The translations under genes and the position numbers were made by a program. 17,002 bases of DNA from a candidate division SR1 bacterium (GTDB taxonomy: Bacteria > Patescibacteriota > Gracilibacteria > Absconditabacterales > Absconditicoccaceae): assembly GCA_025997135.1 (NCBI GenBank), contig BNUE01000025.1, forward strand, positions 1 through 17,002. Direction: 5' to 3'. Shown in pieces: positions 14,050 to 17,002 of the stretch. Each line of letters opens with the position of its first letter. Position 1 is the first letter of the stretch. The notes under the pieces were generated by a model. That model saw nothing but the letters and a program-made list of their open reading frames with translations. It did not search any database and was not told the DNA's origin.

Positions 14050-14606
14050 TAAAAGGAACTACTAAAAATTTTAAAACTCTGATTCTTACTGTCTTTTTCA
14101 CTAACTATCACTTCATTCACGTCCACATAATCATTCCAGTTGATATTCAAATCACTATCAGATCGCAGAATTCCACCTTCATCACTTGGATCATACAGAT
14201 TATCACACTTGTACACAAACTCAGTCCCATCTTCCAGAGTCAAAAACCCATGTCCAAACCCACGAGGAATAAAAAACTGACTTTTATTCTCGGCAGACAA
14301 TACGACTCCGTACCGTTTTCCAAATGTCAGAGAACCTTTCCTCAGATCGACAGCGACATCATAGACACTACCTGCGATTACACGGACAAGTTTCGCCTGT
14401 GGATTGTTTTGTTGAAAATGAAGTCCTCTCAAAACTCACTTTTTGGATTTACTATGATTGTCCTGTACAAACGTTGTGGAAATTCAGCTTTCTTTAAACT
14501 CTTTTTCATTGTAAGTTTCCATAAAAAAGCCCCTCTCATCTCAGAAAACTTGAGGACTAATTACCACCAATCAATCAATTCCAGTTTGAGTAAATTTAAA
14601 AGTCAT
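14049..14606 (-). CDS. rfbC: dTDP-4-dehydrorhamnose 3,5-epimerase
   Basis: RmlC epimerises C3 and C5 of dTDP-4-dehydro-6-deoxyglucose to the L-rhamno form. The 185-residue cupin protein shows 'VFGDERGFFMETY', 'QDNHSKSKKGVLRGLHFQ' with catalytic H63, 'VIAGSVYDVAVDLRKGS', 'FFIPRGFGHGFL' and 'YKCDNLYDPSDEGGI'. Two normally tryptophan positions are CGA or CGG codons: 'TFGK-x-YGV' (CGG at 14313-14315, residue 98) and 'GGIL-x-SDSDLNINW' (CGA at 14163-14165, residue 148). By contrast the conserved Arg in 'IPRG' is CGT. The start ATG 14606 follows the rmlA stop as TAATAATG, so the two genes are tightly coupled; the stop overlaps rmlD. Confidence 0.96.
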
Positions 14607-14608
14607 TA

Positions 14609-15478
14609 TTACAAATTCATCAAATAAAATCAATAATTACTTTTCAAGAGTGGCTTTGCAAGTTCACTGACTTCATCACGAGAGATCCACCCCTGCCTAA
14701 ATGCAATCTCCTCTGGACAACAAATCTGAATCCCTTGTCTAGTCTGCACAATCTGCACAAAATTTGACGCATCCAGCATACTTTCATGACTTCCAGTATC
14801 TAGCCGTGCGAAACCCCTCTCCATCACTTCCACTTTCAGCTTTCATCTGTGCATATATTCTTCATTTACAGTTGTAATTTCCAATTCTCACCTAGCACTT
14901 GGTTTGATATTTTTCGCGACTTGTATCACGTCATTTGTATAAAAGTATAGTCCAACGACCGCTAAATTTGACTTGGGATTAGCAGGTTTTTCCTCGATAG
15001 AAACAGCATTTTGTTCCTTATCTAATTCTACGACTCCATAAATCTCTGGATTCTTTACCTCATAACCAAACACCACAGATTTTCTCTCATTCGTCACAGT
15101 CTGCACCGCATTATTTAGAAGAGATCAAAAACTCTGACCATAAAATAAGTTATCCCCCAGAACCAAACATACATCCTCATCTCCGATAAACTCCTCACCG
15201 ATGATAAACGCCTGAGCTAATCCATCAGGACTTGGCTGAACGGCGTAATTTAGCTCAATTCATCGCTTTTTGCCATCTCCGAGAAGTCTGATAAATCCAG
15301 CTTGATCTTCTGGAGTCGTAATGACGAGGATTTCCCTGATTCCAGCCTGCATCAGCACTGACAGTGGGTAATAAATCATAGGCTTGTCATAAATTGGCAG
15401 AAGCTGTTTACTCGTCCCTTTTGTAATAGGGTAAAGGCGGGTTCCGCTTCATCCAGCAAGAATTATTCATTTCATCAT
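14609..15478 (-). CDS. rfbA: Glucose-1-phosphate thymidylyltransferase
   Basis: RmlA makes dTDP-glucose from glucose-1-phosphate and dTTP, the first and feedback-regulated step of the rhamnose pathway. The 289-residue protein has 'GIILAGGSGTRLYPIT' (G10 by TGA, R14 by CGC), 'SKQLLPIYDKPMIYYPLS', 'YAVQPSPDGLAQAFI', 'LVLGDNLFYG', 'VGLYFYTNDVI', 'ELEITTVNEEYM' and 'LDTGSHESMLDASNF'. Two conserved Trp positions are read from CGA (15263-15265, 'DGKK-x-GIELNY') and CGG (14804-14806, 'GFA-x-LDTG'). Under the standard code it would stop after 'KSNY' at a TGA; with code 25 it runs on 'GFYLMNL' to TAA, three bases before rmlC. ATG 15478 or 15475 start. Complete and typical in length. Confidence 0.97.
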
Positions 15479-15521
15479 TTTGAAAGTAAAAAAGATAAAA
15501 AAGTCTGATTTAATTTAGTTT

Positions 15522-16070
15522 TTATATAAATCTCCCTACCACCACAATAATCAGATCAATCACATATGTCGCAAATAACAGGGCTGATAAGTCATTTATC
15601 CTACGAACAGAGTGCTTCTGAATAATTCTCTCAGTAATCGGAAACAAAAAATGAATAAAAAGAGTCGCTATCAACCCAAATAACAGAACATTTTTTAGGC
15701 AAATATAACCCATAAAGTTGTATGGCAGAGCGGAATAATCCCAGAATGGATTGTATCCAAGATATGCTACGATGACAGCTGCAGACAGGAATTCTACACA
15801 AGCCGTCACAAGAGTCGAAAGTATAAATATCAGCAGAATATTTGGACGTTTGAATTTTTTATAAATCGGATGAATGCAGGTAATAACTGCTACTACTCCC
15901 AGTCAGTAAGGCACAGCCAGAGGTGTGATTGTCGGAATATTGAATGGATTAAATCAGCTTTTCGTAAACCAAACCCAAACAACTTCCAGCAGATGCCCGA
16001 GCAACGCAAAAAACCAGAAATATAAGAATATCTTTCATCGAGAGTTGATTGAGTCAGCCTTTTTTTCCAT
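15522..16070 (-). CDS. CmpB-like (ABC_trans_CmpB, PF06541) integral membrane protein
   Basis: A 182-residue hydrophobic protein with about five predicted membrane segments (roughly residues 13-32, 50-70, 78-101, 120-145 and 160-180). It fits the family named putative ABC transporter type IV / CmpB: 'FALLGHLLEVVW', 'FNIPTITPLAVPYGLGVV', 'ACVEFLSAAVI', 'FWDYSALPYNFMGYICLKN' (the family's W-D-Y-S..P-x-N..G-x-I-C-L signature) and 'IHFLFPITERII'. The real function of the family is not established despite the name. Four TGA codons encode Gly, one after a CGA in 'INS-x-GK'. ATG 16070 lies 23 bases after the rmlB stop and the gene ends 43 bases before rmlA, so it is inside the rml operon, an unusual place; a role in lipid or glycan transport would be a guess. 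Confidence 0.75.
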
Positions 16071-16093
16071 TTTTTCAATAACAAAGTTAAAAG

Positions 16094-17002
16094 TTAAGCA
16101 GAAACATACCCCTCAATAGTCTTCACAATTCCATTTTCAAACCTCACTTTCGGTTCTCGACCTAGTTCCTCCTTAATTTTGCTAGCATCTATCGCATATC
16201 TCAGGTCATGACCTTTCCTATCCTCGACAAAACCTATAAATTCATCTCATTTTCACATCTCTTTCAGAATCATTTTGGTGATTTCTAGATTTGTATATTC
16301 ATTATTTCATCAGATATTGTAGATACTTCCATTTTCTCACCTGTTGAAAATCTCCCAAATCGCATCACAGTGATCTTCTACATACAGCCAGTCGCGAATA
16401 TTGCTTCCATCACCATAAACCGTAACTTTCTGCCCATTTTGGAGTAAATAGATGAAATGAGGGATCAGTTTTTCTTTATCTTGATTTGGTCAATAGTTAT
16501 TTGAACATCTAGAAATACTGTAATTTACACCAAAAGTCCTTCAATAAGCCTTGACTAGCAGGTCACCACTGGCTTTGGATGCAGAATATGGACTAGAAGG
16601 ATTCAGTCCCATCGTCTCTACGAAAAATCATCAATTCGGCAGGTCTCCATATACTTCATCAGTCGAAACATAGTGAAATCTCCTCAAACCAAACTCTTTA
16701 TGGAGTTCTAGTAAATTCTGAGTTCCCATCATGTTTGTCTGGACGAAAATGAATGGATTTTTGATACTATTATCCACGTGAGATTCAGCAGCAAAATGGA
16801 TTATATCAGTAGGTTTATATTTTTCATAGACTGCTCTGAGCTGATCAATATCTCTAATATCCACTTGTTCAAATGCGTAATTGTCAGCTTTTTTAATCTC
16901 TTCTTTTATATTTTCGAGTTTGCCAGCATATGTCAGACAGTCCACATTGATGAACTGGATTTCTGGATGAAGAAGTACATATTTATTCAGAAAGTTTGAG
17001 CC
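16094..17002 (-). CDS. rfbB: dTDP-glucose 4,6-dehydratase, N-terminus outside window
   Basis: RmlB oxidises and dehydrates dTDP-glucose to dTDP-4-dehydro-6-deoxyglucose using bound NAD. The visible 302 residues begin in the Rossmann motif ('GSNFLNKYVLLHP', after the lost 'GGAGFI'), so only about a dozen residues are missing. Family landmarks: 'VDCLTYAGKLENI', 'IIHFAAESHVDNSI', the catalytic T-D-E in 'YVSTDEVYGDL', Y-x3-K in 'SPYSASKASGDLL', 'SNNYGPNQDKEKLIPHFI', 'NIRDWLYVEDHCDAI', 'YNIGGNNEYTNLE' and 'DRKGHDLRYAID'. The terminal 'ELG-x-EPKVRFENG' has CGA (16157-16159) at the position normally Trp. Several TGA glycines. First gene of the minus-strand rml operon as far as the window shows; its promoter lies outside. 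Confidence 0.96.

Follow-up and report, generated by a model that had tools for sequence, protein, structure and literature searches.

In the Absconditabacteria the codons CGA and CGG have been predicted by a computational codon screen to encode tryptophan, beside UGA encoding glycine (Shulgina and Eddy 2021, PMC8629427), and the same code is stated for the Absconditabacterales in a passage of PMC13092985. The NCBI translation tables held in Biopython (up to 33) include none in which CGA or CGG is anything other than arginine. NCBI tables have been added since, one perhaps for this clade. We analysed a stretch of 17,002 nt (contig BNUE01000025.1 of assembly GCA_025997135.1, in the following called the window) from the genome of a candidate division SR1 bacterium of the family Absconditicoccaceae (the host, G000; its family is called the host family). 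A sequence-only reading of the window had noticed seven CGA or CGG codons at positions where related proteins carry tryptophan, had proposed CGA/CGG=Trp besides UGA=Gly, and had mentioned a large codon screen with this outcome in some Absconditabacteria; that screen exists and is the one of PMC8629427. As judged from aligned codon columns and tRNA genes, the code of the host is very probably UGA=Gly, CGA and CGG=Trp and otherwise standard. This code is already known for the Absconditabacteria (PMC8629427); what is added here is a family-wide survey of tRNAs with the U72-G73 pattern and a signature in the tryptophanyl-tRNA synthetase (TrpRS) as a candidate mechanism.

All seven codons are CGA or CGG and lie in frame at the positions given by that reading (see table). 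The 19 open reading frames (ORFs) of the window, comprising 5,124 codons including stops, contain 27 CGA, 4 CGG and 41 TGG codons; the remaining arginine codons amount to 22 CGT, 7 CGC, 104 AGA and 42 AGG, and TGA occurs 116 times.

Features of the 17,002-nt window discussed in the text
Feature	Position	Strand	Remark
rmlA, glucose-1-phosphate thymidylyltransferase	14609..15475	-	read with TGA=Gly, CGA/CGG=Trp
rmlC, dTDP-4-dehydrorhamnose 3,5-epimerase	14049..14606	-	
rmlB, dTDP-glucose 4,6-dehydratase, truncated by contig end	16094..17002	-	
CGA, RmlA residue 71, DGKK-x-GIEL	15263..15265	-	
CGG, RmlA residue 224, GFA-x-LDTG	14804..14806	-	
CGG, RmlC residue 98	14313..14315	-	opposite W in PDB alignments
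CGA, RmlC residue 148	14163..14165	-	opposite W in PDB alignments
CGA, RmlB residue 282 (fragment numbering)	16157..16159	-	mostly W in PDB alignments
CGA, YhcG (DUF1016_N) relic	9394..9396	-	Pfam gain with two other CGA as W
CGA, codon 33, AAA_14/DUF4143 protein	5109..5111	+	outside Pfam match, uninformative

For the five codons in RmlA, RmlC and RmlB the homologues mostly have tryptophan or another aromatic residue, as had been claimed. At RmlA residue 224 tryptophan is present in 20 of 22 aligned sequences, and the remaining two are the window protein and a protein 98% identical to it. RmlA residue 71 is aligned with W (10), F (6), Y (2), L (2) and R (2), where both arginine rows are again the window protein and its 98% identical twin; this alignment represents 22 of 120 listed matches, and some of its rows come from databases that possibly read TGA as tryptophan. 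The twin (P0003, from a public contig of 16,777 bases) carries tryptophan at a position encoded by TGA (Gly) in the window, and arginine at the two CGA/CGG positions; this public entry is thus misread at either kind of site. Both RmlC codons are found opposite tryptophan in all four PDB alignments listed, the four chains being variants of essentially one enzyme, and the RmlB codon is opposite tryptophan in three of the four listed and opposite cysteine in the fourth.

When the CGA and CGG codons were read as tryptophan instead of arginine, the Pfam scores rose from 244.0 to 258.1 bits for RmlA, from 238.2 to 248.0 bits for RmlC, from 243.1 to 252.3 bits for RmlB (PF16363) and from 181.9 to 185.3 bits for the TrpRS encoded elsewhere in the genome. 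The YhcG relic gained 4.4 bits in its DUF1016_N match (141.1 to 145.5 bits), jointly for the noted codon and two other CGA codons. The AAA_14 protein, on the other hand, had to be given up as an example: codon 33 lies beyond the Pfam match, and the score is 82.2 with either residue. The YhcG-like gene itself (window positions 8996-9897) is divided over two frames, one with the DUF1016_N part and one with the C-terminal part, and appears relic-like.

The meaning of each codon was then estimated over a larger part of the genome, using 20 genome stretches together with the window (413,002 of 1,039,594 bases, about 40%; 21 pieces from 19 contigs). ORFs were called with UGA as a sense codon, CGA, CGG and UGA were masked, and the ORFs were aligned to 821 ORFs of reference bacteria, which were assumed to use the standard code; every combination of codon and amino acid was scored with BLOSUM62 conditional probabilities. 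A reference match was obtained for 43 of 350 ORFs, yielding 11,133 columns. For sixty of the 62 codons the inferred meaning agreed with NCBI table 25, and the two exceptions were CGA and CGG, both assigned to tryptophan. The 45 CGA columns contained W 16, Y 7, F 2 and R 0 times, and tryptophan was favoured over arginine by 67.7 nats; for CGG tryptophan was found in 5 of 12 columns and arginine in none (16.3 nats). TGG gave a similar picture to CGA, with tryptophan in 23 of 59 columns. CGT, CGC, AGA and AGG were all assigned to arginine (31/84, 23/32, 113/217 and 51/85 columns, respectively), and the best residue for TGA was glycine (147/278). Over all ORFs of the host CGA amounts to 61 per 10,000 codons vs 75 for TGG, and in the aligned columns to about 28-41 per 10,000. 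The GC content is 0.33 in the window and 0.35 in the 413 kb. A membrane-like ORF of the host (L052, 6665-7909) contains a Trp-dense repeat with 15 CGA/CGG and 11 TGG codons.

The same method gave the opposite answer for the control genome G048, which belongs to the same class but to another family: CGA was assigned to arginine (45 columns, 16 R, 0 W), as was CGG (9 columns, 5 R), with UGA as glycine (164 columns, 87 G). Other codons were misjudged in G048, in G046 (also outside the host family) and in the host-family genomes G011 and G001 (3, 3, 2 and 4 codons, respectively), with margins of at most 4.3 nats, and thin columns are therefore not to be trusted. In G011 and G001 the CGA/CGG columns against the standard-code references were too few for a verdict. 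When the host was compared with these two relatives directly, G011 had TGG opposite a host CGA in 14 of 28 columns and G001 in 16 of 40; opposite a host CGG, TGG stood in 3 of 10 columns for G011 and in 3 of 7 for G001. G001 is a genus-mate of the host and contains 97 UGA per 10,000 codons vs 268 in the host.

The tRNA genes were searched with the Rfam tRNA model (39 matches in the genome) and with ARAGORN, and the identity positions were read by eye; the rules for classing a tRNA as Trp-type (G73, not A20, and A/G1:U72 as support) follow PMC8629427. Trp-type tRNAs with UCG and CCG anticodons, which the sequence-only reading had suggested looking for, are present in the host. The tRNA-UCG (G000:C26:7493-7563) has G73 and G1:U72 and lacks A20, and the tRNA-CCG (C47:5577-5647) has G73 and A1:U72 and also lacks A20. 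Besides these, the genome encodes tRNA-Trp(CCA), arginine tRNAs with the anticodons GCG, UCU and CCU, all with A20 (the GCG tRNA with A73 as well), and a tRNA with the anticodon UCA of the glycine type (G1:C72, C2:G71, G3:C70, U73). Neither the Rfam model nor ARAGORN revealed an Arg-type tRNA for CGA/CGG in the host genome. The two outcomes named beforehand as speaking against the reassignment, columns that are mostly arginine and ordinary tRNA-Arg alone for these codons, were thus both looked for, and neither was found.

The pattern extends through the host family. In 35 of its genomes 64 of 65 parsed UCG/CCG tRNAs have G73 without A20 (58 with A/G1:U72, six with G1:C72), and in the other families of the class this holds for none of 22 parsed tRNAs; parsing started from hand-listed loci, of which 66 in the family gave 65 tRNAs and 21 others gave 22. 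The U72-G73 pattern together with these anticodons was matched in 45 of 46 sampled host-family genomes and in 4 of 196 others. G009, the one host-family genome in which the pattern was not matched, has a completeness of 88%. Of the four matches outside the family, the one in G046 is a tRNA according to ARAGORN, while those in G074, G166 and G236 were judged from the matched letters alone not to be tRNAs. The tRNA-CCG of G046 (L115) is of a mixed kind, with A1:U72 and G73 but also with A20; CGA and CGG are found at 3.0 and 5.3 per 10,000 codons in this genome, and its three usable CGG columns are W, F and K. The tRNA-UCG of the control G048 carries A73.

Some observations weigh against the assignment of both codons to tryptophan. 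The inference for CGG comes from 12 columns only, and CGA is opposite lysine in 3 and opposite glutamine in 2 of its 45 columns, residues that are not Trp-like. Arginine is found opposite CGA in 1 of 40 columns when the host is compared with G001, and in 3 of 43 with G001 as query. Furthermore, the host-family relative G034 has an Arg-type tRNA-UCG (L092). The GC content around this tRNA gene is 37%, that of two other G034 stretches 24% and 26%, and that of a stretch from its genus-mate G026 lies within 24-27%, so that contamination is the likely source. A split code in G034, with an Arg-type UCG and a Trp-type CCG tRNA, was considered and set aside on account of the deviating GC of this stretch. 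Contig C112 of G034 contains another UCG-like match, seen from the letters alone.

We considered three alternatives to a completed reassignment. The one that survives best, yet in our view unlikely, is ambiguous decoding: CGA and CGG would be translated as a mixture of tryptophan and arginine, tolerated at surface sites, and the reassignment would be unfinished. The arginyl-tRNA synthetase (ArgRS) commonly uses C35 and G36, and both nucleotides are still present in the UCG and CCG anticodons. In addition, the contexts of CGA/CGG are slightly more hydrophilic than those of TGG within the same genes (z of -3.08 in G000, -2.19 in G011 and -1.27 in G001), with z of the opposite sign in G048 (+2.07) and G046 (+1.33). 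This shift may, however, be a codon-pair bias, since the next residue differs between the two groups: in the host sample (L041-L060 and the window) I, T and L follow TGG, and G, E, D and N follow CGA/CGG, which looks like such a bias. The hydropathy context was dropped as a gauge of residual arginine reading, since it does not separate Arg from TGG. Against a mixture also stand the aligned sites, where tryptophan is opposite CGA about as often as opposite TGG (16/45 vs 23/59), the absence of A20 from all but one of the parsed host-family tRNAs and the lack of any detected Arg-type tRNA for these codons in the host.

Contamination or horizontally acquired genes could also lie behind the sites, which would then not reflect the host's own code. 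The genome consists of 87 contigs with an estimated contamination of 3.01%, and the window contains the broken YhcG gene. The columns of the codon test were, however, pooled over all 19 contigs, an isoleucyl-tRNA synthetase-like ORF on one sampled piece reads RKwGwDCHGLPVE, the TrpRS gene on yet another contig has CGG at a conserved tryptophan site, and CGA is opposite TGG in the comparisons with G001 and G011 as well. We regard this explanation as highly improbable. Just as improbable is that CGA and CGG still encode arginine, as listed in table 25, with the seven sites arising by chance substitution or lying in relaxed genes. By eye, a few positions in poorly conserved proteins of the window do resemble arginine sites, but the standard-code homologues show arginine in none of the 45 CGA and 12 CGG columns, unlike at CGT, CGC, AGA and AGG, and the tRNAs for the two codons are of the Trp type.

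If both codons are read as tryptophan, the question arises how the additional tRNAs are charged. The TrpRS of E. coli reads C35 via Thr225, Asp226 and Lys274; for A36 it uses Ser227 together with the Thr225 main chain, and for C34 the backbones of Tyr270 and Gly271 (PMC12135181). The host genome contains a single TrpRS match, in which codon 96 is CGG; tryptophan is found there in 62 of 68 outgroup TrpRS. For the clade we compared 107 of 121 proteins (P0001 and 120 matches; those with 310-345 residues were used), which are those closest to the host TrpRS, their family not being checked singly. The outgroup comprised 75 loci, of which 68 were usable for codon 96 and 71, together with 18 loci from the class, for the residue comparison (n=89). 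Thr225 and Lys274 are kept in all 107 clade proteins. Position 227 is occupied by Thr (70), Ala (26), Met (6), Pro (1) and Ser (4), i.e. Ser227 is gone in 103, and at position 271 lysine replaces glycine in 107 of 107. Of the 89 outgroup proteins, 77 retain serine at 227 and 80 retain glycine at 271. The combination of a residue other than serine at 227 with Lys271 is found in 103/107 clade proteins and in 0/89 of the outgroup. The TrpRS match of G001 is without an internal stop codon as listed.

As CCA, UCG and CCG have only C35 in common, this residue pattern is what a TrpRS serving all three anticodons might look like. We propose that the single TrpRS would charge all three tRNAs. Its anticodon site would no longer insist on A36 owing to the loss of Ser227, the C34 pocket would be altered by the exchange of Gly271 for lysine, and the C35 contacts Thr225 and Lys274 would be retained. 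ArgRS would pass over the UCG and CCG tRNAs because A20 is gone, and arginine would be left to the tRNAs GCG (for CGU/CGC) and UCU/CCU (for AGA/AGG). That a TrpRS site remodelled in this way, relying on C35 and the acceptor end with the reading of A36 given up and the C34 pocket changed, has enabled or fixed the reassignment seems to us an evenly balanced proposition. Ser227 is still present in 4 of the 107 clade proteins, and Asp226, also a contact of C35, is kept in only 48. Conversely, Ser227 is absent from 12 of the 89 outgroup proteins: G048 and G057 have aspartate at this position, and G048 reads CGA/CGG as arginine, while the outgroup protein L251 has neither Ser227 nor Gly271 (Pro and Ala instead). 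G046 keeps both residues despite its partly Trp-like tRNA-CCG. According to PMC12135181 the E. coli TrpRS need not distinguish C34 from U34, so that U34 does not call for the exchange of Gly271 for lysine. Finally, the clade is one lineage and represents one evolutionary event. All these points tell against the synthetase part of the proposal.

The host belongs to the Absconditabacteria (SR1), as its gene sequences indicate. The named organisms among the close TrpRS homologues are Candidatus Absconditabacteria, candidate division SR1, Absconditabacterales and Absconditicoccaceae, together with one Candidatus Gracilibacteria and one plain bacterium; five RmlA matches are named Candidatus Gracilibacteria, which is perhaps a matter of naming. 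The analysis confirms a proposed bacterial sense-codon reassignment in another species, the control genome having yielded arginine for both codons, and it bounds the Trp-type tRNAs for CGA/CGG to one family among the sampled genomes, G046 aside. Annotation with table 25 consequently places arginine at conserved tryptophan sites. The TrpRS signature, if true, would indicate how a synthetase that normally reads the whole anticodon came to charge tRNAs that share C35 only, one enzyme then serving three anticodons with a single common base. Among the matches listed in our literature searches no title or abstract beginning pointed to a TrpRS account of the reassignment, and the words TrpRS and tryptophanyl have zero occurrences in the eLife paper PMC8629427.

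Among the known systems, NCBI table 25 (SR1 and Gracilibacteria) has UGA=Gly as in the host but CGA/CGG=Arg, and the class relative G048 likewise shares UGA=Gly and differs in CGA/CGG=Arg and in the A73 of its tRNA-UCG. Anaerococcus and RFN20/Onthovivens are described in PMC8629427 and PMC13092985 with CGG predicted as tryptophan and a Trp-type tRNA-CCG, a likeness to the host; there, however, CGA stays arginine and a tRNA-UCG is missing, whereas in the host both codons are assigned to tryptophan and the tRNA-UCG is present. The closest system is the code described for Absconditabacteria in PMC8629427. The codon frequencies given there and here are different measures (CGA below 37 per 10,000 there, within aligned Pfam domains, vs 61 here over all ORFs of the host). 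The GC content of the host, 0.33-0.35, falls inside the range of 0.26-0.38 reported for reassigned clades in that paper. The tRNA logic is the same, with Trp-type UCG and CCG tRNAs and GCG for arginine, and the codons, the amino acid, the clade and the low GC content are shared, the host being a further species with this code.

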